Below are positions 704 through 13,317 of a stretch of 15,289 bases of DNA, one piece after another. The stretch is from Candidatus Poribacteria bacterium (GTDB lineage: Bacteria; Abyssobacteria; SURF-5), in assembly GCA_016215705.1 (NCBI GenBank), contig JACRIR010000179.1:1-15289 (forward strand). The letters run 5' to 3'. The translations under genes were made by a program, and so were the position numbers. Position 1 is the first letter of the stretch, and every line of letters begins with the position of its first letter. Under the pieces are notes generated by a model. That model saw only the letters and a list, made by a program, of their open reading frames with translations, ran no database searches and had not been told where the DNA came from.

Positions 704-719
704 TGGCATGGGAGTTGCT
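704..719 (+). promoter_or_regulatory. Sigma-54 (RpoN) promoter for the cytochrome/MopE-like gene or its leader RNA
   Basis: The sequence TGGCATGGGAGTTGCT matches the RpoN consensus TGGCAYRNNNNTTGCW at every defined position. GG lies at 705-706 and GC at 717-718, with the obligatory 10-bp spacing. The predicted start site is near 730, exactly where the structured element at 731-854 begins. The next gene starts at 1004, giving a ~270-nt leader. Two similar sites lie at 6151-6166 (minus) and 6872-6887. Confidence 0.75.
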
Positions 720-730
720 CATATCCGAGC

Positions 731-854
731 GACATTGCGGAACAATAAAAGGCGCCATCGGCGAAGACTTTGGCGAGCCCGCTGATGGCGCGAGGGAATG
801 TGGGAATTGCTTTTCCCCTTGCGTGTGAGTATACCATTGTTCCGCAAATCTGTC
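731..854 (+). promoter_or_regulatory. Multi-branched structured 5' leader or small RNA candidate
   Basis: A perfect 12-bp inverted repeat, TTGCGGAACAAT (735-746) with ATTGTTCCGCAA (836-847), encloses about 90 nt. GACA (731-734) can further pair with TGTC (851-854) across a 3-nt bulge. Inside, GCGCCATCGGCG (752-763) pairs with CGCTGATGGCGC (780-791), 12 bp including one G-T wobble. A smaller hairpin GGGAA (802-806)/TTCCC (813-817) may form a third arm. The fold is a closed three-way-junction shape starting at the predicted sigma-54 transcript start. No T-run follows, so a leader is likelier than a terminated small RNA. The terminal repeats could also be those of a small mobile element (MITE). 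I do not recognise a known riboswitch class. Confidence 0.5.
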
Positions 855-1003
855 AAATCGTCAAAGGGGGGTGATGCGTTGCATAGATGGTCTTGAGTGT
901 CTCGAGGACGTGGCGCGGGTTTTTATGCATCATTACAGTTGGAATCAACGCCACAAGCGGATCGTAATTGTATTAACGAAGTTCACTTTTAGGAGCGGGA
1001 CAA

Positions 1004-2026
1004 ATGAGATTTCGAGTTCAATCAGGAATACTTGCGCTTTTTGCGGTGGCAATGTGTCTGACGCTTTTCGTGTCGAAGACGGCTTCAGCGGAACCTGGCT
1101 TTTTCAGCAGTTACTGCGCGGGCTGTCACTCCAATGACACGACTACGTGCAACGGATGTCATTCCCATGGAGTGTGGCGCGATTCGTCGCGAACGGTCAT
1201 GAATTTGAAGGCCACGACGGACCTCGCGCAGTACAGGCCGGGTCAGACAGTCAACGTGACTTTGAGCGGCGGCTATCGTACCGGTTGGATCCGGGCAAAG
1301 CTTTATGATCATACGGGGACGGAAGTTGCCAGGGTAACCGGTCCCACGGGTATGGGCGACGACGGAACGGGTTCTGCTGCACAGCAGTTTCCGGTGATAA
1401 TGTCTGCGCCTGCGCCTTCGACACCGGGATTCTATACGTGGAGCGCCGCATGGTTCGGCAACGCCTTCGACGTTAACTTCTTCAACAATTCCCAGCACAA
1501 AGAGGAAAAGGTGTCGACCAACCAGTTCGAGGTCATCGCGCCTCCTCCTGTCTGCGCAGATGCTGACAAGGATGGCTATCAGGATTCGGGCTGCAACGCC
1601 GACCCTGCTAAAGGCGGCGGCGATTGCGACGACACGAATCCGGCAGTAAATCCGGCCGCAGTCGAGGTCTGCAACGATGGGATCGACAACGATTGCAACG
1701 GACTCATCGACTCCGGCGATACGGACTGCACGATGTTCATACTGGCGCCCGGGAACGGGTCGCATCTTACGAGCCCGCCGACCTTCATGTGGAGCGCGGG
1801 CGGAAACAATCGGTTCAAGGCCGAATTTTCCTATGATCCGTTGTTCGGCTCCATCGTGTGGGCTACGCCGGTGCTATCGACCACGAGCTACACCATGTCG
1901 GCCTCCACGTGGAGCAAGGCGCCGAGCAACAAGCAGATATTCTGGCGCGTGCGCGGCGCAAACATAAACGTAACGCCGATCGTGGTCCAGACGGGTCCCG
2001 AAGTGGCGACGTTCTGGAAGAACTAG
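1004..2026 (+). CDS. Secreted di-haem c-type cytochrome / MopE-like metal-binding protein
   Basis: The 340-residue protein starts with a signal peptide (residues 1-29, cleavage after ASA). Two haem c attachment motifs follow, CAGCH (38-42) and CNGCH (49-53), with a further HSHG, so two covalently bound haems are likely. A beta-rich Ig/FN3-like region spans about 65-178. Residues 180-242 form a MopE-type segment: Asp-rich calcium-like loop (DADKDGYQD), then DCDDTNPAVNP and CNDGIDNDCNG, the hallmark of the copper-binding MopE/SACCP family repeat. The C-terminus (about 245-340) is another FN3-like module. AGGAG at 991-995 sets the start. The gene stands alone between a sigma-54 promoter region and a strong terminator. 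Periplasmic or surface electron transfer or metal capture is plausible, but the actual substrate is unknown. Confidence 0.85.
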   Translation: MRFRVQSGILALFAVAMCLTLFVSKTASAEPGFFSSYCAGCHSNDTTTCNGCHSHGVWRDSSRTVMNLKATTDLAQYRPGQTVNVTLSGGYRTGWIRAKLYDHTGTEVARVTGPTGMGDDGTGSAAQQFPVIMSAPAPSTPGFYTWSAAWFGNAFDVNFFNNSQHKEEKVSTNQFEVIAPPPVCADADKDGYQDSGCNADPAKGGGDCDDTNPAVNPAAVEVCNDGIDNDCNGLIDSGDTDCTMFILAPGNGSHLTSPPTFMWSAGGNNRFKAEFSYDPLFGSIVWATPVLSTTSYTMSASTWSKAPSNKQIFWRVRGANINVTPIVVQTGPEVATFWKN

Positions 2027-2064
2027 ACAGAGTCTCTGCGGCCCTCGGACCGGGCAATACAAAT

Positions 2065-2106
2065 ACGAGGGGGCTGTGCATCCGTGCGCAGCCCCCTCGT
2101 TTTCTT
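2065..2106 (+). terminator. Strong intrinsic terminator, TCCG tetraloop, possibly bidirectional
   Basis: Positions 2065-2080 pair with 2085-2100 in a 16-bp stem with a single T-G wobble (2077/2088). The stem closes on a TCCG loop, a UNCG-class tetraloop known for high stability, and is followed by TTTTCTT (2100-2106). It ends the plus-strand gene that stops at 2026. It lies 26 bp beyond the stop of the convergent minus-strand gene. On that strand the tail is only moderately T-rich (ATTTGTATT), so bidirectional use is plausible but weaker. Confidence 0.92.
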
Positions 2107-2131
2107 GATTCCGGGAATGTCTTGGCTCAGA

Positions 2132-5116
2132 TTATGTCTTTTGGCTCAATTCGCGGATCATGTTCTGGTTGGTTTGGCGCTCGGGGAAGGGGAGTGAGAG
2201 AGCGTCAGCAGCTTTGAAGTCTTCGAGCGCTCTGGTTTTGTCTCCGAGCTTGAGGTACACTAATCCGCGATGGTGGCGGATGGAAGGGCTGAGCGAGTTG
2301 AAAAAGACCGCTTTTTCCAACTGTTCCTTCGCGTTCTTGTAATCGCCCTTCTGGAAGAAAATCCAGCCGAGAGTGTCCAGGTATTCGGCCTTTGAAGGTT
2401 GGCCTGTCACCGCCGCGCGCGCATGTCCGAGCGCCTGATCGAGTGTCTTGGGATTTTTCGCGAGGAGCCAGGCCAGATTATTATCGACGGTTGCAAGATT
2501 GGGGTGGAGTTCGTCTATCTTTCGATACGTTTTCACAGCGTCCGCTACGTTTCCTTTCTTCTCATAGAGTCCGGCAAGAGCCAGGAGCATGGTGACGGAA
2601 TCGGGTTCGTATTTCAGTCCGTTTCGCAAATACTCCTCGGCCTGGACCATGTTTTCCTGCCTCAGCGCCCACACGCCGAGCCGGTAGTAAGCCGGCCAGT
2701 AGGATTTGTCTGCTGTTATTGCGGAGCGGTAGTCAGCCGTCGCCCGGTCGATCTTTCCCTCCCGCTCGAGAATGCCGGCGGCAGTTTCGAGAAGGGCGGG
2801 ATTCTGCCCAACTTTTTTCAGAACAGACTCGATCCTTGCCACCGCGAGCAGATTCCACCGAAACTCGGTCAACGCAATGGCCAAATCGAGATCGTACAAT
2901 TCATTCTTGGTGAGTGATTTTGAATCGAGCAGTTTCACGTAGTTCTTCTTGAAGGGTTTCGGAATGACGGCGCCCTTGTTGACCACGTCGACCGCCTCGG
3001 CGTTCTTGCCCTGGGCCGCGAGGACATTTGCGAGGAGCAATCTATGCGGAATTACGTCCTCTGTTTCCGCCTCGCGTTCACCCAGAAATCTTGCTGCGTT
3101 CGGATAGTCTTCGTTGCTCGCAGCACCCAAAGCCTGTACGAGCCTGCCGCGGAAGCTTCTCAGCGTTTTCTCAGGGGAGGCTGGCAGGAATTCCCGGGCT
3201 TTTTGCGGGTGGCCAAGCTCCAGGGTGCACAAAGCGAGTTTCGTTCGGAACTCCTCGTTCGAGGGATTGGCGCGCGAGAGGGCGTGAAAATAGACTGCCG
3301 CCCTCGAGGCATCACCCTCCTTGGCCATAGTCTCCGCCAGAAGGTAGGCTGCATGTCCGTTTTTGGGGTCAGCCTTAAGGGTCCGCGAGAGTTCTTCACG
3401 CGCCCTGGAGTATTGATTAGCTGACAGGAACATATTGGCAAGTGTAAGACGATAGCCGATCTGTTTCGGGTTGGCGTTTATCAACTCCTTCAGAACAGTC
3501 TCGGCCTCGTCATATCGTTTCATAAGAATCAGCGCTTTGGCCAACTTAAGCCGTATCATCTGGTCTTTCGGCGCAAGGTCGGATGCTTTCCTGTATAGTT
3601 GAAGAGCCTGTTCGTGACTGCCGGCTCCAAGATAGACGCCTGCCATATTGACATATGACGCGGCAAATTTGGGATTCTTGCTAACCGCCTGATTGAAATA
3701 CCTCAAAGCATTGCCGGTGTCCTGGCGTTTGAGATAGACGAGACCCAGCAGGTTGAGGAACAAAGGGGAGTCGGGGACCTTCTTGAGCGAATCCTCACAC
3801 AGTTTTTGGGCTTTTGCAAGGTCTCCCGCTCGAAGTGCTTTGAGCGTTGCCTTAAAACTGTCGGCTACTTCATCGGGAATGCCTTGTGATTCGAGCAAGC
3901 TATCGATGTGCTCGAACGTCTGCCGTTGCGCGTCAGCCTGGATCAACAACTGCCTGGCGGATTCGTTGCCGGGATCGTCCGAGAGGACGAGGCCGATCTC
4001 GCGTTGCGCTTGCTCGAAGGAGCCTTCCGCCAGGAGAGTTTGTGCCAGCACAAGGCGATACGGCGTGTTCTTGGGTTGCAATGCCAGCGCGTTCTGAAAG
4101 GCGGATATTGCCTGGCCCATGTTGTTGGTACCTTTGAGCGCCAGGCCATGAAGATAATAGGTTTGCGGCGAAGCCGACGGCGAGCCCGCCGCCTTTGCCA
4201 GATAAGGGAGGGCCGAGGCATAATCACCTTGCTTAAGAATTATCGCGCCGAGAAGAGAATTGGATTCGACGCTTCCGGGGGCCATCTTTAGGTACGCTTC
4301 GGCTTCCCGGCGCGCGTCAGTGAGGCGGTTGCCGGAATAGTACGCTTCCGCGAGCGCCCCTCGTGCAGGAAAGCTGTTCGGGTTTTCGGCAAGGATTGCT
4401 TTGAGCGTCTCGATCGATTTGTCGGCGCGATTCGTGAATCGAAATATTTTGGCGAGGGCCAATCTTGCAGTCACGTTCTTAGGGTCGCCGACCGTGGTCA
4501 CGTTCATGAGGTGTTTCTCGGCCACCTCATATCGGTCGTCGTCCAAGGCCATCTGCGCGAGCGCGAGGCGGGATTCGACGTTGTTCGGATCAACAGAGAG
4601 GGTTTTCTCGAACCACGAAGCGGCCTCCTTCTCATTCTCTTGTTTCAATTTGAGTTTGCCCATCAAAACGAGCGCATCGACGCTCCCGGCATTTGCCAGT
4701 AAGGCGTCGCGGCACATAGCTTCGGCCAGGGCGGGTTGGTCACTTGCGGCATAAACGTCTGCTATGGATACCAGAGCTTTGATATTTAGTTTAGGATCGA
4801 GTTGCCGCGCTTTGTCGAAGGACTTGATAGCCTGCTCATAGTACCGCAGGGCGATATAGCATTTGCCCATTTGATAATGAAGGTCGGGCATGTTCGGGTC
4901 GATCGCAAAAGCATTCTGATACTCGACGAGGGCGTCCGCCGGACGTCCCCGTCGTTCGAGGATCATTCCTTTGTTGAAATGCTTGAGCTTGTTCTTGTCG
5001 GGGTTCCCGCAGGAAGCGAGCAATGCGAAGGCACACAAGGCGAGCACTGTGGCAGGTAAACAGGAACGATATGCGAAGCTTCTATTCTTACATCGTACCG
5101 TTTTCATGGGTTGCAT
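2132..5116 (-). CDS. prsT: PEP-CTERM system TPR-repeat lipoprotein, PrsT family
   Basis: The 994-residue protein has an N-terminal signal with lipobox LASC (lipid-modified Cys36), then tetratricopeptide repeats almost end to end. Examples are residues ~43-75 (KGMILERRGRPADALVEYQ) and the following HYQMGKCYIALRYYEQAIKSF. Most repeats carry the small-residue/Tyr/Ala-rich TPR pattern and end in a DPxN-like turn. Length and architecture fit the TPR lipoprotein found in exosortase A/PEP-CTERM exopolysaccharide loci (about 900-1000 residues). Family members are thought to scaffold surface-matrix assembly, but the biochemical role is not established. Met1 and Met4 (5105-5107) are both possible starts, and neither has a good Shine-Dalgarno. 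Its promoter is sigma-70-like, unlike the sigma-54-type sites of its neighbours. Confidence 0.88.
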   Translation of the reverse strand: MQPMKTVRCKNRSFAYRSCLPATVLALCAFALLASCGNPDKNKLKHFNKGMILERRGRPADALVEYQNAFAIDPNMPDLHYQMGKCYIALRYYEQAIKSFDKARQLDPKLNIKALVSIADVYAASDQPALAEAMCRDALLANAGSVDALVLMGKLKLKQENEKEAASWFEKTLSVDPNNVESRLALAQMALDDDRYEVAEKHLMNVTTVGDPKNVTARLALAKIFRFTNRADKSIETLKAILAENPNSFPARGALAEAYYSGNRLTDARREAEAYLKMAPGSVESNSLLGAIILKQGDYASALPYLAKAAGSPSASPQTYYLHGLALKGTNNMGQAISAFQNALALQPKNTPYRLVLAQTLLAEGSFEQAQREIGLVLSDDPGNESARQLLIQADAQRQTFEHIDSLLESQGIPDEVADSFKATLKALRAGDLAKAQKLCEDSLKKVPDSPLFLNLLGLVYLKRQDTGNALRYFNQAVSKNPKFAASYVNMAGVYLGAGSHEQALQLYRKASDLAPKDQMIRLKLAKALILMKRYDEAETVLKELINANPKQIGYRLTLANMFLSANQYSRAREELSRTLKADPKNGHAAYLLAETMAKEGDASRAAVYFHALSRANPSNEEFRTKLALCTLELGHPQKAREFLPASPEKTLRSFRGRLVQALGAASNEDYPNAARFLGEREAETEDVIPHRLLLANVLAAQGKNAEAVDVVNKGAVIPKPFKKNYVKLLDSKSLTKNELYDLDLAIALTEFRWNLLAVARIESVLKKVGQNPALLETAAGILEREGKIDRATADYRSAITADKSYWPAYYRLGVWALRQENMVQAEEYLRNGLKYEPDSVTMLLALAGLYEKKGNVADAVKTYRKIDELHPNLATVDNNLAWLLAKNPKTLDQALGHARAAVTGQPSKAEYLDTLGWIFFQKGDYKNAKEQLEKAVFFNSLSPSIRHHRGLVYLKLGDKTRALEDFKAADALSLPFPERQTNQNMIRELSQKT

Positions 5117-5167
5117 TGAGCAACAGGGTCACAGAAGTTTGATTAAGTCTCTCATGGTTGAGTCACT

Positions 5168-5197
5168 ATTATAATATGTGCCGTGTTCTTTATTCAA
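5168..5197 (-). promoter_or_regulatory. Sigma-70-type promoter for prsT
   Basis: On the minus strand TTGAAT (-35, plus 5192-5197) and a perfect TATAAT (-10, plus 5168-5173) are separated by 18 bp. The predicted start is near 5161, leaving a leader of about 45 nt before the prsT ATG at 5116. No sigma-54 GG-N10-GC element is present in the 164-bp gap on this strand. A weak 6-bp hairpin, CAAGAG/CTCTTG (5226-5231 and 5243-5248), sits between this promoter and the upstream PEP-CTERM gene and might reduce read-through. It has no T-run. Confidence 0.6.
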
Positions 5198-5280
5198 ATC
5201 AAAGGGCACAGGAGAGTCGAGACACCAAGAGAGGAGACTTTGCTCTTGCTGAAGACGAGATGCGCTTACTGAAATGTTCG

Positions 5281-6060
5281 CTATGATACTTTCGGTCTTC
5301 TACGCGCTGTAAGGACGCCGGCCAAGCCAATCCCTAACAGAAGACTTGTTGCCGGTTCGGGAACGACCTCACCCGCCACGGGCAACTCGATGACGTCGTT
5401 TCCGCATTCCATCGTCCAATGTATCGTGAAGTCATTGCCCCACAGATCGCCAAAAGCGTCGACAGGTATGGCCATTTCAATCACATAATGATTGTTGTAG
5501 CCAGTGCCGCCATAATAGGTGTTATTGTAGGCCAGTTGAGCATTGTATGTAGTGTCAGCGCCGCTTTCTAAGTTATACGGGTCCGATTCAGGGGAGAAGT
5601 AGGTCGATTGGCCCCAGTCGTTGGCATCCGTACCGACTATGTCGCCTGTCGTGAATAGCGCGCCGTCTCTTCCCGTTGTCTCCACTCCAAACTCATATGA
5701 GCCGTCGCTATTGAAATCAAATGCGAGATCGCCGGCGCCATAGTTCACCCCGCCATACACAGCCCCCGTGGAAGGTGTGCCGGTCACCACGGAGACATAA
5801 AGCGTATCGCCATCGTCACTGTAATATGCGTACATGGCCTCGGCATCAAATGGCTGGCCTCCCACTCCCGGCTCGACCACCCACTGCATCGAGTTCTCAA
5901 CTTTGCCGTCGATTCCTGCTTCAGGCGTCCAATCGCCCGTCTTTGGGTTCAGAGCCCAATCGTTGAGGTTTCCATCGATCGTGGACGGCGTGGCAAGCGC
6001 GACAATGGGGGAAAGAATCATAAGAGTCAGGAATGACAGCAGGATTGATGCTTTCTTCAT
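5281..6060 (-). CDS. PEP-CTERM surface protein with a carbohydrate-binding-like domain
   Basis: The 259-residue protein has a signal peptide (MKKASILLSF..., cleavage near ALA at 21-23). A beta-sandwich-like body opens with TPSTIDGNLNDW and contains many Asp, Gly, Tyr and Asn residues. The IDGNLNDW start is typical of DOMON/CBM9-type extracellular domains, so sugar binding is possible but inferred. The C-terminus is a textbook PEP-CTERM sorting signal: VPEP at 233-236, a hydrophobic helix (about 238-251) and a basic ARRRPK tail. By family knowledge it is recognised and cleaved by an exosortase (XrtA/EpsH) during export into the polysaccharide matrix. AAAGG precedes the ATG at proper spacing. 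A sigma-54-type promoter (6151-6166) lies 90 bp upstream. The exosortase itself is not in this window. Confidence 0.92.
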   Translation of the reverse strand: MKKASILLSFLTLMILSPIVALATPSTIDGNLNDWALNPKTGDWTPEAGIDGKVENSMQWVVEPGVGGQPFDAEAMYAYYSDDGDTLYVSVVTGTPSTGAVYGGVNYGAGDLAFDFNSDGSYEFGVETTGRDGALFTTGDIVGTDANDWGQSTYFSPESDPYNLESGADTTYNAQLAYNNTYYGGTGYNNHYVIEMAIPVDAFGDLWGNDFTIHWTMECGNDVIELPVAGEVVPEPATSLLLGIGLAGVLTARRRPKVS

Positions 6061-6150
6061 GTACCCTTTCTTTGCAGACGCACTCTGTTTGCGCTTTGTG
6101 AATGAGACCAGAGACTTCTATCATAAGACAAAAATATAGTTTATACTTTA

Positions 6151-6166
6151 GGCAAGAAGTATGCCG
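6151..6166 (-). promoter_or_regulatory. Sigma-54-type promoter for the PEP-CTERM gene
   Basis: Read on the minus strand the site is CGGCATACTTCTTGCC. The GG (plus 6164-6165) and GC (plus 6152-6153) are exactly 10 bp apart. It differs from TGGCAYRNNNNTTGCW only at the first and last positions. The predicted start near 6140 gives an 80-nt leader. It shares GGCAT and TTGCC with the operon promoter at 6872-6887. Confidence 0.62.
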
Positions 6167-6270
6167 TGATCATGATTATTTGTAAAATGCTATGCTACAA
6201 TGGGTTACATTGAAAACACAAATAAGTCCAGAGTAAAAAAATGATGCCAAATATACTCACTACTTTCTCC

Positions 6271-6290
6271 GTGTTGATCAAACGCAACAC
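6271..6290. promoter_or_regulatory. Dyad, possible enhancer site for a sigma-54 activator
   Basis: GTGTTG (6271-6276) and CAACAC (6285-6290) form a perfect 6-bp inverted repeat with an 8-bp spacer. It lies 105-125 bp upstream of the minus-strand sigma-54-type site, a usual distance for an enhancer-binding-protein site. I did not find a clear second copy before the other two sigma-54 promoters, so the assignment is tentative. Confidence 0.3.
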
Positions 6291-6308
6291 CAGGATGAGT
6301 GGCGAGCG

Positions 6309-6449
6309 ATGAAAGGCGGATACGGAATGAAACGAAGATCGGATGGCTCTATTCTTGAGGTGACTTTCACCCCGGACCGTGGGGGGGGGGATTTTTTCTT
6401 TTGTGATAAGGAGGGCGGAGTTTTGGTGGGTGCAGGCCGCTCAGCATGA
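6309..6449 (+). CDS. Doubtful 46-residue ORF containing a G10 tract
   Basis: The frame starts MKGGYGMKRRSDG, continues ILEVTFTPDRGGGDFFFCDK and ends GRSA. Its composition is plausible for a protein but I recognise no family. The G10 run (6381-6390) encodes three Gly codons plus the first base of Asp. Loss of one G would splice the first ~24 residues onto the frame that runs to 6588. The ribosome site is weak (GAG at 6304-6306, close to the ATG). It may not be translated at all. Confidence 0.22.
   Translation: MKGGYGMKRRSDGSILEVTFTPDRGGGDFFFCDKEGGVLVGAGRSA
6381..6390 (+). repeat. Homopolymeric G10 tract
   Basis: Ten consecutive G are followed by A and six T. Such runs are rare in sequence of balanced composition and are hot spots for slipped-strand mutation. 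A short CACCCC just upstream could pair with part of the run. A sequencing or assembly length error is also possible. Confidence 0.85.
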
Positions 6450-6477
6450 TGGACAGGAAAGAAGAAAGGAGGTGGGA

Positions 6478-6588
6478 ATGGCAAGAAGTGGCTATGCTGA
6501 ATGCCATTTTCGTGGGTTAGCGCAGATGGGAATTGCCGTTGAGTTTGCTCGTTACCCAAAAAAAGTTGTGACCCTGAGACAATGTTGA
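6478..6588 (+). CDS. Possible 36-residue small protein with a very strong ribosome site
   Basis: AAAGGAGGT (6465-6473) ends 4 nt before the ATG, a near-ideal Shine-Dalgarno and the best one in the window. The predicted peptide begins MARSGYAECHFRGLAQMG and ends in VVTLRQC, with two Cys and several basic residues and no transmembrane helix. I recognise no family. It lies in the otherwise non-coding region before the EPS operon promoter, so it could be a small regulator or a chance ORF beside a purine-rich stretch. Confidence 0.3.
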   Translation: MARSGYAECHFRGLAQMGIAVEFARYPKKVVTLRQC

Positions 6589-6871
6589 TAAGTTCAAACA
6601 GTTTTCAATCAATTTAAGCAAAGGAAAGACAATTTGAACAAATCGAGACAAGCAGAAATTTCATTTCCTGCGAGGAAGCCCTCCAGCGCAGGGTCTATGT
6701 GTTCTTGAATGAGAGTATTCGTCACAGAAAGATGCACAAGACATGGGTTTGCAGGGTGTTAGGAGTTTGCCAGTGAGGCTTCGAGTTGTCTTTTTCTTGC
6801 CCATATGCTGTGGAAAGCCAGCGACGGGAACGATATAGTCAAAGTTTTGTCGCGAACCATTGGGCGGACCG

Positions 6872-6887
6872 TGGCATGACTATTGCC
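6872..6887 (+). promoter_or_regulatory. Sigma-54 promoter of the exopolysaccharide operon
   Basis: TGGCATGACTATTGCC has GG at 6873-6874 and GC at 6885-6886 with exact 10-bp spacing. It matches TGGCAYRNNNNTTGCW at all but the last position. The predicted start near 6898 gives a ~79-nt leader before the first gene at 6977. XrtA-type loci are known to be controlled by a two-component pair, PrsK/PrsR, whose response regulator is a sigma-54 activator. That regulator would be expected nearby but is not in the window. Confidence 0.78.
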
Positions 6888-6976
6888 ATGTATTCCCAGG
6901 AGTTACGCCATGTGTTTGTGAGAAGGCGTGTGCAAGGACAGATCCAACAGCTACCTGAATTTCCGGGAGGCCTCTC

Positions 6977-7684
6977 ATGACAAGACGGCTACTTATTCTT
7001 ATCGGCTTACTGATGGTTGGTTTGATCACGGGTTGCACAGCTTTTCATGGGGCCGGCACAGTTAGCGACTATCCGGTCGTTAGGGAAGAAACCTATCATC
7101 TGCAAGCGCCTGACGAAATAGAGATTTCGGTGCTGCCGCAGGAGGAGTTGAATAGGGGAGTTACAATACGGCCGGACGGGAAGATATCGCTGCCACTGAT
7201 TGGTGACGTGTTTGTTGAGGGAATGACTCCGATGGAAGTCTCATCGAAGCTGACCGAGGAGTTCTCAAAATACGTCAAGAATCCTGTGGTTGCGGTGATT
7301 GTGACCGGCTTTCACAGCAAGAAGGTGTATGTGATTGGAGAAGTGGAAAGGCAGGGTGTTTACCCTTACACGGGTGAAATGACCGCCTTTGAGGCAGTTG
7401 AGGAGGCGGGCAGTTTCACGAGGCGAGCGGCACTGGGACGCGTAATCCTTGTTAGAGGGGATCTGAAGAATCCGAAAGTAATTGACGTTGACCTGAAGCG
7501 AGTGGTCAAAGAGGGAATGAAGCAGAACGATCTGTTCCTGCAACCGGATGATATCGTGTATATACCGCCGAACGGTTTTGCGAAGGCGGGTTACGCTATT
7601 GAGCAAGTTTTATTCCCGTTCATGCCCATTCTGGGAGTCGGCAGTTCGCTTACTTCCGTCAGAAGCCTCGAAGAGACGTTCTGA
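6977..7684 (+). CDS. Outer-membrane polysaccharide export lipoprotein (Wza family, XrtA/PEP-CTERM type)
   Basis: The 235-residue protein has a lipoprotein signal with lipobox ITGC (Cys20). A polysaccharide export (Poly_export) domain spans about 38-112, including APDEIEISVLPQEELNR and IRPDGKISLPLIGDV. One SLBB domain follows at about 115-190 (KKVYVIGEVERQGVYP, then PDDIVYIPP). The hydrophobic C-terminal segment (205-222) resembles the helix that lets Wza-type proteins cross the outer membrane. At ~235 residues and one SLBB domain it is shorter than E. coli Wza and fits the small PEP-CTERM-associated exporters. GGGAGG (6965-6970) lies 6 nt before the ATG. It is the first gene of the operon, with the chain-length gene 50 bp downstream. 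Confidence 0.9.
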   Translation: MTRRLLILIGLLMVGLITGCTAFHGAGTVSDYPVVREETYHLQAPDEIEISVLPQEELNRGVTIRPDGKISLPLIGDVFVEGMTPMEVSSKLTEEFSKYVKNPVVAVIVTGFHSKKVYVIGEVERQGVYPYTGEMTAFEAVEEAGSFTRRAALGRVILVRGDLKNPKVIDVDLKRVVKEGMKQNDLFLQPDDIVYIPPNGFAKAGYAIEQVLFPFMPILGVGSSLTSVRSLEETF

Positions 7685-7734
7685 GATTTGGGCTTGACTG
7701 TTGGCGGCGATAGTCCCAAGAGAGAACCCCTGAG

Positions 7735-9294
7735 ATGCAAGAACAAGGCAAGATAGACATCGACAAGTACCTCGATATTTTGCACAAGTATAAGTGGCAC
7801 GGGATAGTTCCCGCTCTGATTTTTGTGGTGTCATTTACCATTGGCAGTCTGTTCCTGCCCAAGGTTTACGAAAGCTCCTGCACAGTTGAGGTGGACAGAG
7901 GCACAATAGAGAATCCATTGAAGAACGGGACTGAGCGGCCTCCCGACCTCGGCGATCATCTCAGGGTGTTTTCGGAGAGCGCTCTCAAATGGGACATCCT
8001 CTCTCGAGTTGTGGACAAGGTTGGCGCTGAAGCTATTATTGAAAACAGCGACGTGTACAACATAGGGAAAGCGGCGAGAAGCGTTGGGTTGGGGAAACGA
8101 AATAGCCGTGGTTCTCGCGATGATCTTTCTCAGAAGGAGGCAGTAACGGCATTGCTGAGAAAGGGGATCAGGGTTCAGCAGAGACAGCCTAGATTTCTGG
8201 TTCTGTCATATAGAGGGACCCATTCCAGTGTCAACGCCGACATTCTCAATACGTTGGTTTCCTCACTTATCGAGGAAAAGATAAAGCTGGAGCTTACGCA
8301 GGCCGGACGGAGTTTTGAATTTCTCAAGACCGAGATGGAGAGTTATCGACAGAAGCTTGAGGAAGCCGAGGCTCGCTTGAAAGAGTTCAAGGAGCAGCAC
8401 ATATCTGAACTGCCGAATGACGCGAACATCAACTTGTCTCAGCTCTCGAACGATAAATCCGATGTTCTTGCGTGCGAGCTTGAAATGAAGGAATTAACGA
8501 CAAGGGTTCGGTACATCGATGAGGAACTTCAAAAACAGAAAGAGCTCGTTGTGTCCGAGGTCAGACGAGAAGCCAATCCGATGCTTACCGTCCTGAATGA
8601 GCGGATTGTGGACATGGAGGTCGAGCTTACGAGGCTGCGAACGAACTACACGGAACTGCATCCAAGAGTCGTGGAACTCAAAGGGCAGCTCGAGGACCTG
8701 AAGAGACAAAGAACGGAAGCCGAGAATTCCACTGTTAACAGTGAAACTTCCATGCTCAATCCGGTCCATCAGCAACTCACACAGGACAAGCAGAATACGC
8801 TTGTCCGCATCGAGGTTTTGAAGAATCGGCTTGCAAACCTGAAGAGGCGTGTTGATGAAAACGAGAAGAAAGTGCGCAGCATGCCGGCGCAGGAACAACA
8901 GCTTGTGACGCTCACGCGCAATTATGAGGTAACGTCAAACATTTATAACATGTTCCTTCAGAAGGTGGAAGAAGTCCGGGTGCAGGAAAAACTCGTTACC
9001 GATGAGAAGGATAAGGAGTCTTTTAGAGTGATCGAGTATGCGCGAGCCACTTTTGCGTCTGTGGCCCCGAACAGGATGCAGTTGTTGTTCATGATACTGT
9101 TGGCGGGCGGAGGGATATGCGTTGGCATGATGGCCTTGCTGAATTTCTTCGATGATTCGTTGAGAAGCGTAGAGGAAGCCAAGGAATTCCTCAAGAAGCC
9201 TCTCTTGGGGACCGTTCCTTCATTGAGCAGTCACGAAGGGAACGGCGCAGTGTCCGTCCGTGAAAGATTACTGAAAGCAATCGGCAAATCATAG
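7735..9294 (+). CDS. Polysaccharide chain-length determinant (Wzz/GumC-like, XrtA type)
   Basis: The 519-residue inner-membrane protein has a short cytoplasmic N-terminus, a first membrane helix (about 23-42) and a periplasmic Wzz-type segment (LPKVYESSCTVEVD). A long charged coiled coil covers about 190-420. A GNVR-like motif lies at about 393-416 (LTRNYEVTSNIYNMFLQKVE), and a second helix at about 449-471. A 48-residue cytoplasmic tail contains LLGTVPS. It has no kinase domain; that function is on the separate protein three genes on, the split arrangement of XrtA loci. Family knowledge says it oligomerises with the kinase and exporter to set polymer length. The Shine-Dalgarno is weak (AGAGAG), suggesting coupling to the upstream gene. 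Confidence 0.9.
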   Translation: MQEQGKIDIDKYLDILHKYKWHGIVPALIFVVSFTIGSLFLPKVYESSCTVEVDRGTIENPLKNGTERPPDLGDHLRVFSESALKWDILSRVVDKVGAEAIIENSDVYNIGKAARSVGLGKRNSRGSRDDLSQKEAVTALLRKGIRVQQRQPRFLVLSYRGTHSSVNADILNTLVSSLIEEKIKLELTQAGRSFEFLKTEMESYRQKLEEAEARLKEFKEQHISELPNDANINLSQLSNDKSDVLACELEMKELTTRVRYIDEELQKQKELVVSEVRREANPMLTVLNERIVDMEVELTRLRTNYTELHPRVVELKGQLEDLKRQRTEAENSTVNSETSMLNPVHQQLTQDKQNTLVRIEVLKNRLANLKRRVDENEKKVRSMPAQEQQLVTLTRNYEVTSNIYNMFLQKVEEVRVQEKLVTDEKDKESFRVIEYARATFASVAPNRMQLLFMILLAGGGICVGMMALLNFFDDSLRSVEEAKEFLKKPLLGTVPSLSSHEGNGAVSVRERLLKAIGKS

Positions 9295-9321
9295 AGAATC
9301 GTCGCATCTATCCCTGAATCC

Positions 9322-11379
9322 ATGTACCTCGAATTTTACAGACTGAAGGAGATGCCGTTTAGTCTCACGCCGGATCCGGCTTTCCTTTACTACAGCAGCG
9401 TCCACCGGCGCGCGATTGCTTTCTTGAAATATGGTCTGCAGGAGTCAAAGGGATTTCTGCAATTGACCGGCCCGATAGGCTCCGGAAAGACGACGCTGCT
9501 CCGGGCGGTGCTTTCACATCTCGACGAGAAAACGAAAACGGCCTATATCATAAATCCATGCGCTCCTTTTCCCGACCTGCTGCGGTCCATCATGAAGGAC
9601 CTCGAGATTCCCAACATTCCTCAGACCAGATTGAAGATCGAGTTGCTCGATTTCTTTCATGACTATTTGCTCGTTCAGACCAGGCGGTCTCAACGGGTCG
9701 TAGTCATATTCGATGAAGCTCAGAACCTGAGCATCAAGAACCTCGAAGAAATCCGGATGCTCTCTAATTTCGAGACAACGAAGGAAAAGCTTCTTCAGAT
9801 CGTTTTTGTGGGCCAACCTGAGCTGAAAAAGACGCTTGACGCTCCTGAATTGAGGCAGCTCAAGCAGAGAATCCAGGTGCGATATCATCTGGCGCCGCTG
9901 AACCAGGGAGAAGTGAAGGAATACATAGATCATCGTCTTCGGGTTGCCGGTTCAGATGGAAGCGTTGTGTTTTCCGATGAAGCCTGCCGCGAGATTCATG
10001 AATTTTCCGGAGGCATCCCTCGCCTCATCAATTCAGTCTGTGACGTTATGCTTCTCATAGGCTACGTGAATGAACGCAAGACATTCGATGGCTCTCAGGT
10101 CACCGAGGCGATCGATGAAATGAACGGCTCGCCTCGCGAAGATTCTCTCACGGAAGAGGCAAACGAAAAGATCGTGGGCAATAGAGGAGTCGAATGTGAG
10201 CCCGAAGATCGCGCCTGGCAGCGTATTCAAGAAGAAGCCGGGCCGGCAGACGACCCGGTGACACGGGACATTTGTGGCAAATCTGAAGACAAATTCCTCC
10301 AGTATCCGGAACAGGTCACAGAAGAGACCGAGGAAGTCCCAGAAAGTGATAATACCGACTCTGCACAGGCTGCCGTCACTGTATCTGAGCCGGATTCCGG
10401 CTTCAGCGATCCGGCGATGGAATCGAGACTGCCTCACATCGTTGTTGATGAGATGCCACAGCCGACGGAGGGGGGAGAAGCCTCTCCTGCTGTGGAATCC
10501 GTATCCGGCGAAAGAACGTCACGGAGACTCGAGCTTCTGCAGAGGACATCCAGTCGAATTCGCTCTCTTTTGCAGCGCCGTTTCTTCGCTTCGGTTCGAC
10601 GGATCGATCTTTCTCAGACACTTGCGGACAAGCGCAAGATAGCGGTCCTGCTCGATAACGGGCGGATCGTGAACGGTTATACGAGAGAGTTGTTGGATGT
10701 AAATAAACGGGGGTTCGACTTCATCCCTTGTGAACGCACAAATGGGCACGTGGAAGGATTCGTTCCTTTTGATCGGATCATTGCCGCCCGTTTCCTGGAA
10801 AGTTTCGATGGCGTTTGGGAAGAGAAACGCCACACCAAGCACAACTCGCCCAAAGGCAGAGAGATAATCGTTACGCTGAAGAACGGGATGGTAGTCGAAG
10901 GCATCACTCTTGGCAGATTCAACGCAAGGTGTGACCGGTTTTTTGTTATCTCCACGAATGGGGACGAGAAAGCGTCGTGGCTGCTCATAGAACGAACCGG
11001 CACGCTCGGCATATTGGCTGAGACCTTCAAGGATGGGATATACGCCGAGGAGTTTGAGAATCTGCCTCCATTGCCTGATGACGAGGAGAGACGGCCGGAG
11101 CCGGTTTCTGACTACGAGACAGCCGGCGACAGATTCTTTGCAGTTCAGAATTACGATTCCGCCCTGCTTCAATATCAGGAAGCATTGGAAACCGCTGACG
11201 GCCGGAAGAGGCTCAACCTCAAACTATCTCTGTGTTATTACAACCGTGGTCTGGCGCACATAAGAGCACACAGGTTTCTCGAGGCAAAGATGGACTTCGA
11301 GAAAGTGGCGGGCAGTCCTTATCTTCGAGGGAAAGCGCGCGCGAGGATGCGAGAAATAGGAAAATTGACTAAAACATAG
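9322..11379 (+). CDS. XrtA-associated AAA ATPase (ExeA/GspA-like) with long C-terminal extension
   Basis: Residues 1-270 are a typical ExeA-like ATPase: start MYLEFYRLKEMPFSLTPDP, Walker A GPIGSGKT (50-57), Walker B VVVIFDEAQ (126-134), sensor VFVGQPEL (161-168) and GGIPRLIN (230-237). The start is secure because the N-terminus matches the family, although no Shine-Dalgarno precedes it. An acidic, probably disordered linker spans about 270-430. Two related beta-rich modules then lie at about 437-495 (KIAVLLDNGRIVNGYT) and 511-572 (EIIVTLKNGMVVEGIT). The C-terminus (about 590-680) has TPR-like helices (ETAGDRFFAVQNYDSALLQY). Usual XrtA-associated ATPases end soon after the AAA part, so this one is about twice as long. 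It likely energises or regulates export complex assembly at the inner membrane. Confidence 0.9.
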   Translation: MYLEFYRLKEMPFSLTPDPAFLYYSSVHRRAIAFLKYGLQESKGFLQLTGPIGSGKTTLLRAVLSHLDEKTKTAYIINPCAPFPDLLRSIMKDLEIPNIPQTRLKIELLDFFHDYLLVQTRRSQRVVVIFDEAQNLSIKNLEEIRMLSNFETTKEKLLQIVFVGQPELKKTLDAPELRQLKQRIQVRYHLAPLNQGEVKEYIDHRLRVAGSDGSVVFSDEACREIHEFSGGIPRLINSVCDVMLLIGYVNERKTFDGSQVTEAIDEMNGSPREDSLTEEANEKIVGNRGVECEPEDRAWQRIQEEAGPADDPVTRDICGKSEDKFLQYPEQVTEETEEVPESDNTDSAQAAVTVSEPDSGFSDPAMESRLPHIVVDEMPQPTEGGEASPAVESVSGERTSRRLELLQRTSSRIRSLLQRRFFASVRRIDLSQTLADKRKIAVLLDNGRIVNGYTRELLDVNKRGFDFIPCERTNGHVEGFVPFDRIIAARFLESFDGVWEEKRHTKHNSPKGREIIVTLKNGMVVEGITLGRFNARCDRFFVISTNGDEKASWLLIERTGTLGILAETFKDGIYAEEFENLPPLPDDEERRPEPVSDYETAGDRFFAVQNYDSALLQYQEALETADGRKRLNLKLSLCYYNRGLAHIRAHRFLEAKMDFEKVAGSPYLRGKARARMREIGKLTKT

Positions 11380-11488
11380 CGGCAAGCGAGGTTGTCAGGA
11401 ACAATGCCCGTTTTTGCGTTATTCGACACCTCCAAAATGGGAACAGATCTCCGACATTTGGCTTATTGCGGCAGAAAGAACGCAGCGT

Positions 11489-12322
11489 ATGTCTAGAATT
11501 GAAAGAGCACTGAGAAAAGCCGAGGAAGAACGACTCAGGAAACTGCCTGAGGAGCCCTCTCAAGATGACCACAAAATGAGCGTGCTTGTAACTCCCGAGG
11601 GTCTGACCGAAACGCCTTTGGAAGAGAGCAAGCTTACGCAGCATTCGGAGCACTTCAGGAAGATAGCGGCTAAGCTCAAGTTTTGCGGCGAAAACATTAG
11701 AGCCACGGACGTCGCTTTCACGAGTGCCGTTAGCGGTGAGGGGAAGACTACAAACGCCATAAACTGCGCCATCTCGCTCTGTCAGGATTTCAACTTGTCC
11801 GTGTGCCTGGTGGATTGCGACCTGCGCAATCCGAGTGTTTCGAAATATTTCAGATCAAACGGGAGTCCGGGAATGGTCGAGGTTCTCAAAGGCGAAACCG
11901 ACATCGGCTCAGTGATTCAATCCAGCCCCGTGAAAGGTCTTTCGATCGTACATACCCACAAAGTGGGCAAGCAATCACTGTCTCTCTTTAATAGCGATCG
12001 GCTCAGACGGGTTGTCCAGGACCTTCGGGAACGGTTTGATTTTGTTTTGTTCGATACACCGCCTATTCTTCCTGTCGCTGATACGGTGGTTTTATCTCGT
12101 CACGTCTCTTCAGTGGTCCTTATTGTCGAATCAGGGAAAACGCGCAGGAAGCATATCGAACAGATTCTTGAGCAGATAGACAAGGATAAAGTCATCGGAT
12201 TTATTATGAACTACAAGACGCACAGAATGCCCGAAATGTATAACTATTCGAAATACTATCACTATGGCTCAGAGGGAAGCCAGAATGGCCAAGATCAGAA
12301 TAAAGGCCAAACGCAGGGCTAG
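11489..12322 (+). CDS. Tyrosine-protein kinase for exopolysaccharide synthesis (BY-kinase, XrtA type)
   Basis: I chose the ATG at 11489 rather than the one at 11414 because MSRIERALRKAEEER is the usual family start. The protein is then 277 residues. It has Walker A SAVSGEGKTT (79-88), Walker A' VCLVDCDLR (105-113) and Walker B FVLFDTPP (185-192), the three-motif signature of bacterial tyrosine kinases. The C-terminus carries a tyrosine cluster, YNYSKYYHY (251-259), the expected autophosphorylation site. It lacks membrane helices and would be activated by the cytoplasmic tail of the chain-length protein, phosphorylation state cycling with polymerisation. A 109-bp gap separates it from the ATPase gene. 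The HTH gene starts 15 bp after its stop. Confidence 0.92.
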   Translation: MSRIERALRKAEEERLRKLPEEPSQDDHKMSVLVTPEGLTETPLEESKLTQHSEHFRKIAAKLKFCGENIRATDVAFTSAVSGEGKTTNAINCAISLCQDFNLSVCLVDCDLRNPSVSKYFRSNGSPGMVEVLKGETDIGSVIQSSPVKGLSIVHTHKVGKQSLSLFNSDRLRRVVQDLRERFDFVLFDTPPILPVADTVVLSRHVSSVVLIVESGKTRRKHIEQILEQIDKDKVIGFIMNYKTHRMPEMYNYSKYYHYGSEGSQNGQDQNKGQTQG

Positions 12323-12708: not shown

Positions 12709-13317
12709 ATGCGTCACTTCAATCATGAATATGCGAGAGACAAGATGACTGGACTGATTGATTTAAGAAAAGAGAACATTGCGAAGCGTGAACCGGAGCA
12801 TTCGCTGGATTTCTTATCCCTAAGCAATGATCCGAATAAGAAATGGTGTGTGTTGCATACGAAATCGCGCAGGGAGAAGAAGCTAGCCCAAAGATGTTCG
12901 CAACTTGGCATCCAATACTACTTGCCGCTGAGGAAAAGCGTCACAGGCAGGAGAGGGAGAAGGCATGTTTCAGATGTTCCTCTATTCCCGGGGTATCTAT
13001 TCTGTTGCATGGACAGAGGGGAATGCTGGGGCTTGCTTCAAACCGACCACATTGCGAATGTGTTGGATGTCGTCGATCAAAAGGGCCTGGTAACTGATTT
13101 GAACAACATCAAAGACGCCTGCGAAAGAGGCGTGCTCTTGAAGCCATGCGCGCTTGTGGACAGAGGTCAACGCGTCCGTATCCTGGACGGTCCATTTGCC
13201 GGTCTTGAGGGTATCGTTAGAAAGCACCTGGGCGGTTTTCGACTCGTGCTCACCATGGAGTGCATTCAACAGGCCGTCGCTTGTGAAGTGGATGTCCGGA
13301 TGGTTGTGCCCATCTGA
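12709..13317 (+). CDS. Specialised NusG paralogue (RfaH/UpxY/LoaP-like antiterminator)
   Basis: The 202-residue protein has an NGN domain (about 45-140): KKWCVLHTKSRREKKLAQR, YYLPLRK, and the diagnostic PLFPGYLF (91-98). A KOW domain follows at 152-180 (GQRVRILDGPFAGLEGIV). NusG paralogues inside long polysaccharide operons ride with RNA polymerase and prevent early termination, so this one probably serves the operon it sits in. The first ~44 residues are an unusual charged extension. The start is uncertain: the ATG at 12709 has only TTAGG touching it, whereas Met13 (12745) has GAGAGA at reasonable spacing. Gaps of 158 bp before and 187 bp after, with hairpins in both, suggest regulated expression. 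Confidence 0.87.
   Translation: MRHFNHEYARDKMTGLIDLRKENIAKREPEHSLDFLSLSNDPNKKWCVLHTKSRREKKLAQRCSQLGIQYYLPLRKSVTGRRGRRHVSDVPLFPGYLFCCMDRGECWGLLQTDHIANVLDVVDQKGLVTDLNNIKDACERGVLLKPCALVDRGQRVRILDGPFAGLEGIVRKHLGGFRLVLTMECIQQAVACEVDVRMVVPI

Follow-up and report, generated by a model that had tools for sequence, protein, structure and literature searches.

Sigma-54 promoters of an EPS/PEP-CTERM locus in Candidatus Abyssobacteria: probably two circuits, with a candidate leader RNA before secreted cytochromes

Genes of the locus

The window, that is the whole stretch of DNA that was analysed, is one entire contig of 15,289 nucleotides (G000:C106) from a 5.47 Mb draft genome that is 92% complete. The source organism belongs to Candidatus Abyssobacteria, an uncultured deep-subsurface lineage (a class assigned to Hydrogenedentota), and its genome was compared with those of two close relatives from other Candidatus Abyssobacteria genera, G001 and G002, the latter being Candidatus Abyssobacteria SURF_17. 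The window encodes a secreted diheme protein with two CxxCH motifs, an Ig-like beta domain and one MopE-type motif (1004..2026, + strand), followed on the opposite strand by prsT, the gene for the XrtA/PEP-CTERM TPR lipoprotein (2132..5116, - strand; TIGR02917, 336 bits with a cut-off of 312), and by a PEP-CTERM protein gene (5281..6060, - strand), whose product exceeds the cut-offs of both TIGR02595 and PF07589 and has an orthologue in G002 with 45% identity. The EPS operon (6977..12322, + strand) encodes a Wza-like export protein, a chain-length determinant, an XrtA-associated ATPase and a tyrosine kinase. A NusG/UpxY-like antiterminator gene, located within the EPS cluster (12709-13317, + strand), may govern elongation through the cluster. 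At the left end of the window, a gene fragment (3-284, + strand) resembles the C-terminal part of a MopE-like protein of G001 (KNGVLVGS...CTWEA...GDPNP), so that the fragment probably represents the last part of a second, tandem MopE-like gene.

The components of the XrtA/PEP-CTERM system, namely exosortase, PrsT and PEP-CTERM protein, are all present in the genome. The exosortase, encoded on another contig (G000:C55), exceeds the cut-off of TIGR02602 and lies below that of the XrtA-specific model (181 vs 208 bits). The same contig carries a second PEP-CTERM gene downstream of a gene for an 804-amino-acid secreted protein (L163:5859-9327), which is preceded, 57 nt upstream of its start, by a strong sigma-54 site, TGGCACAGGCTTTGCC.

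The two CxxCH motifs of the diheme/MopE-like protein are invariant across its homologues, and the protein is consistent with a secreted c-type cytochrome. The likeness to MopE of Methylococcus capsulatus consists of one 30-amino-acid PF11617 motif, which scores 42 bits against a cut-off of 27. In MopE itself, copper is bound by two histidines and a kynurenine (PMC3423442), while the protein described here has two CxxCH heme motifs; since the match is to the PF11617 motif only, metal handling is not implied. An AlphaFold model of the protein had a mean pLDDT of 60, only parts of the Ig-like beta domain being confident, and a search of the PDB with this model returned generic Ig folds.

Sigma-54 sites and their conservation

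The original prediction placed three sigma-54-type promoters in the window, and their coordinates, strands, GG-N10-GC spacing and shared GGCAT and TTGC blocks were all verified, as were the genes lying behind them. The first site, TGGCATGGGAGTTGCT (704..719, + strand), precedes the diheme/MopE-like gene, with a predicted transcript start near 730; the second, CGGCATACTTCTTGCC (6151..6166, - strand), precedes the PEP-CTERM gene, with a predicted start near 6140; the third, TGGCATGACTATTGCC (6872..6887, + strand), precedes the EPS operon, with a predicted start near 6898. Each is correctly oriented upstream of its gene, the EPS and PEP-CTERM sites at ~90 nt from the start codon and the MopE-like site at ~285 nt.

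The window contains exactly three matches to the pattern GGCATN5TTGC, as compared with a mean of 0.17 over 200 shuffles, a single one of which reached three; the slightly wider GGCAYN5TTGC returns the same three sites, a number reached by no shuffle. A looser scan of the window (TGGCACN5TTGCW with three mismatches) gave 59 sites where 62 were expected, with no excess over chance. Only the strict match is therefore informative, and the evidence consists of strict matches together with conservation. Genome-wide, TGGCAYN5TTGC has 67 matches, as compared with 12 for the reversed control, and the genome encodes the rpoN gene on which the prediction depended (TIGR02395, 454 bits, cut-off 277).

The strongest evidence for the predicted sites is their conservation in the sister genera. 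The EPS-operon site is kept in three of three genera and the PEP-CTERM site in two of two. The G002 locus has the same architecture, with a divergent EPS operon preceded by TGGCATAGTTGTTGCC (L128:5887), a PEP-CTERM gene preceded by TGGCATGTTACTTGCC (L128:6576) and then prsT, and in G001 the orthologous EPS site is TGGCACAGAGATTGCC (L129:6656). Furthermore, TGGCAYN5TTGC is found ~285-410 nt before the start codon in six of seven MopE-like homologues from the three genera; the only one without it is second in tandem after another MopE-like gene, at a contig end. The three sites of the window are thus considered genuine sigma-54 (-24/-12) promoters, their transcript starts being predicted from the position of the sites. 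As for prsT, the sigma-70-like promoter previously assigned to it was recovered as a 10/12 match (5168..5197, - strand), and no sigma-54-like site was found upstream of the gene.

A conserved hairpin in the cytochrome leader

The predicted leader of the diheme/MopE-like transcript (~285 nt, vs ~90 nt for EPS and PEP-CTERM) contains, near its 5' end, a conserved 49-nt hairpin (747..795, + strand), a candidate cis-acting RNA with a covarying stem in four copies. Even when three mismatches were tolerated, the genome contained no more than two copies of the 23-nt core of the hairpin, GGCGAAGACTTTGGCGAGCCCGC, each of them in a MopE-like leader. A covariance model built from three copies recovered all three of them in a search, together with an independent fourth copy that had not been used in the model (G002:C105:4056-4104, E 3.7e-10); this copy is located 28 nt behind the sigma-54 site TGGCATAACAATTGCT, upstream of a multiheme cytochrome gene of G002 without the MopE motif. 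In the four copies 96.4% of the cells pair, and five both-side changes are distributed over four pairs. This covariation was matched by 2 of 500 shuffles, and the signal was destroyed by sliding the partners. Related sequences can beat such shuffles without any structure, and four sequences are few, so that the hairpin is a strong lead and not proof; as such it is the most interesting by-product of the analysis. The hairpin was absent from the other three MopE-like leaders that bear a sigma-54 site, and no Rfam match was found in the leader (E up to 5) or in the three other hairpin loci (E up to 1).

It may be tentatively proposed, at a little less than even odds, that the hairpin represents a new type of cis-acting leader RNA, as its first known example. 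Situated at the 5' end of the transcripts that arise from sigma-54 promoters of secreted c-type cytochrome genes in Abyssobacteria, this RNA would tune the mRNA after initiation through signal sensing, protein binding or a block to decay. The asymmetric loop is the most conserved part of the hairpin, the changes in the arms are compensatory, and the element always lies just downstream of the predicted transcript start. These features argue against a DNA site (an inverted-repeat operator or a downstream activator site) or a generic 5' mRNA-stabilising stem, an explanation that nevertheless keeps a substantial share of the probability: part of the arm sequence (GYGCCATY) is common to three of the only four known copies, as in an operator, and the longer leader folds little better than shuffles (z -1.4). 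In Geobacter, GEMM-Ib (cGAMP) riboswitches likewise form a structured 5' leader before secreted cytochrome genes (PMC6456294); unlike GEMM-Ib, the element described here is a single 49-nt stem-loop without an Rfam match. A candidate leader RNA would thus stand before secreted cytochromes, at the place where Geobacter uses cyclic-dinucleotide riboswitches.

Other matches to the hairpin, in the genomes G129, G266, G183, G181 and G046, had E values from 7e-5 to 7e-3 per genome, which over 290 genomes is chance level, and they were accompanied by no convincing sigma-54 site or cytochrome; they were discarded. Hairpins with the same loop core were seen in unrelated genomes (L200:1501-1554 and L203:1501-1551), in one case followed by a T run, again at chance level over 290 genomes. 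In addition, six MopE-like leaders (window 730-1003, L078, L079, L080, L082 and L083) contain runs of at least five G (five of six) and of at least four C (six of six), counts that were equalled by 6 of 500 and 15 of 500 shuffles, respectively, and that possibly reflect long-range pairing near the start codon.

Activators and circuits

Control of PEP-CTERM genes by PrsK/PrsR and sigma-54 is known from Proteobacteria (Haft 2006, PMC1569441; pepA of Aquincola, PMC9850573), and the sigma-54 motif of these genes was found only in that group (Haft 2006, PMC1569441). The locus described here is similar in that a single-gene PEP-CTERM unit is preceded by a sigma-54 site at a comparable distance, ~90 nt falling within the reported range (mean 71, maximum 221 nt; PMC1569441), and in that the nearby prsT lacks such a site, as in Aquincola, where prsT is RpoN-independent (PMC9850573). 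It differs in that the host lies outside Proteobacteria, Haft motif 1 is absent and no protein passes the PrsK or PrsR model; moreover, the EPS operon has a conserved sigma-54 site, whereas the EPS genes of Aquincola seemed RpoN1-independent (PMC9850573). A Haft-like sigma-54/PEP-CTERM arrangement is thereby extended to a deep-subsurface lineage outside Proteobacteria, apparently with a different activator and with the EPS operon included.

In the 92% complete genome no protein passes the PrsR model (TIGR02915; best 439 bits, cut-off 502.6) or the PrsK model (TIGR02916; best 109 bits, cut-off 300, with matches confined to the C-terminal kinase region), although in a draft of this completeness a true PrsK/PrsR could be missing. 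The TTTACA end of Haft motif 1, a motif expected ~63 nt (32-92) before the sigma-54 site, was absent at this distance from all three promoters: an exact TTTACA is found only 14 nt before the PEP-CTERM site, with none at the other two sites or in the orthologues, and TTTACT, which has one mismatch, is found 65 nt upstream of the PEP-CTERM site. By position, the candidate counterpart of PrsK/PrsR is a kinase/NtrC pair that adjoins the XrtA-system deacetylase on G000:C55, the contig of the exosortase and not that of the window. The same pair is found beside the deacetylase in G001 (G001:C75), downstream of the EPS operon, and the two NtrC proteins are orthologous (67%). Since the XrtA-linked NtrC fails the PrsR model and its contact loop reads GAFTTA (L163:15675-17066, G000) or GAFTSA (L166:4250-5659, G001) instead of GAFTGA, its ability to activate sigma-54 is in doubt.

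A candidate activator site, AAGACAATTTGAACAA (6626..6641, + strand), lies between the EPS operon and the PEP-CTERM gene, 246 nt before the EPS promoter. The element AAGACAAtnTgAACAa is common to the EPS promoters of the three genera, at -246, -255 and -246, and in G000 and G002 it is located in the intergenic region that also contains the PEP-CTERM promoter. None of 63 upstream regions of other sigma-54 sites scored as high; the score of 59.2 exceeds the shuffle maximum of 57.0 by a small margin and derives from three sequences only, and when G001 is left out the element falls to rank 2 of 63. It was not found upstream of any of the six MopE-like genes that bear a sigma-54 site; since such sites are short and degenerate, this absence is a weak indication of a different activator. 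Use of the element as a genome-wide regulon marker was abandoned: its exact matches number six, including one in the window, and with one mismatch there are 131 matches vs 74 for the control, which makes the search uninformative. When motif discovery was applied to the MopE-like upstream regions, the result was a weak element resembling ATTTGGGGT, rejected for inconsistent position and mixed leave-one-out ranks.

The genome encodes ~30 full-length NtrC-type activators, and sigma-54 sites precede open reading frames that, by eye, read as DnaK, GroES, ClpB, pilus and flagellar proteins; sigma-54 therefore serves many functions here, and genes with the same type of promoter need not be induced together. 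The number of activators, the lack of a protein that passes the PrsK or PrsR model, the distribution of the EPS element and the differing leader lengths favour two sigma-54 circuits, one for the matrix (EPS/PEP-CTERM) and one for secreted cytochromes with a candidate leader RNA, a reading to which we assign a probability of about 0.6; the activator motifs, taken alone, are weak. The divergent EPS and PEP-CTERM promoters would form a single matrix circuit, in which RpoN polymerase at both is probably switched on by a single NtrC-type activator that binds between them (candidate site 6626-6641), so that the polysaccharide and the sorted matrix protein would be produced together. The promoter at 704 would belong to a separate sigma-54 set for secreted c-type cytochromes, whose transcript would start near 730 with the hairpin close to the 5' end of a long leader, where it probably adds control or stability after initiation.

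The original prediction had instead joined all three promoters in one PrsK/PrsR regulon, in which a PrsR-like activator would jointly turn on the EPS operon and the production of the PEP-CTERM and diheme/MopE-like proteins, matrix production being induced jointly with extracellular electron or metal handling. The three sites do lie within 6.2 kb, in two genera the XrtA deacetylase has the kinase/NtrC pair linked to it, and the exterior of the cell is a frequent theme of sigma-54 regulons elsewhere (PMC4641369). This explanation is unlikely: besides the lack of PrsK/PrsR above cut-off, of motif 1 and of the canonical GAFTGA in the XrtA-linked NtrC, the EPS element is missing before the MopE-like genes, which have a different leader architecture and whose paralogues and homologues keep their sigma-54 promoter on contigs without the EPS operon; moreover, the metal component of the proposal goes back to the PF11617 motif. 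A chance resemblance of the three sites, with the genes using other promoters, is very improbable, for even though the PEP-CTERM site has C where the consensus TGGCA begins with T, a weak sigma-70-like match (6186-6158) overlaps it, and 23 of the 67 strict genome matches fall inside open reading frames (44 being intergenic, by a crude ORF call), the counts against shuffles and the conservation at orthologous positions across genera oppose it.

The two-circuit reading separates circuits whose sigma-54 promoters, taken by themselves, look the same. A comparable case is the RpoN regulon of Geobacter sulfurreducens, where sigma-54 acts as a global regulator whose targets include pili, flagella and the cytochromes of extracellular electron transfer (PMC2725144); unlike the genes described here, diheme-domain homologues in Geobacter, Anaeromyxobacter and others showed no convincing upstream sigma-54 site, with two weak hits. 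Finally, the sites that precede the DnaK-, GroES- and ClpB-like open reading frames (L013, L106 and L112, on G000:C45, C246 and C251) hint at heat-shock genes under sigma-54 in this lineage.
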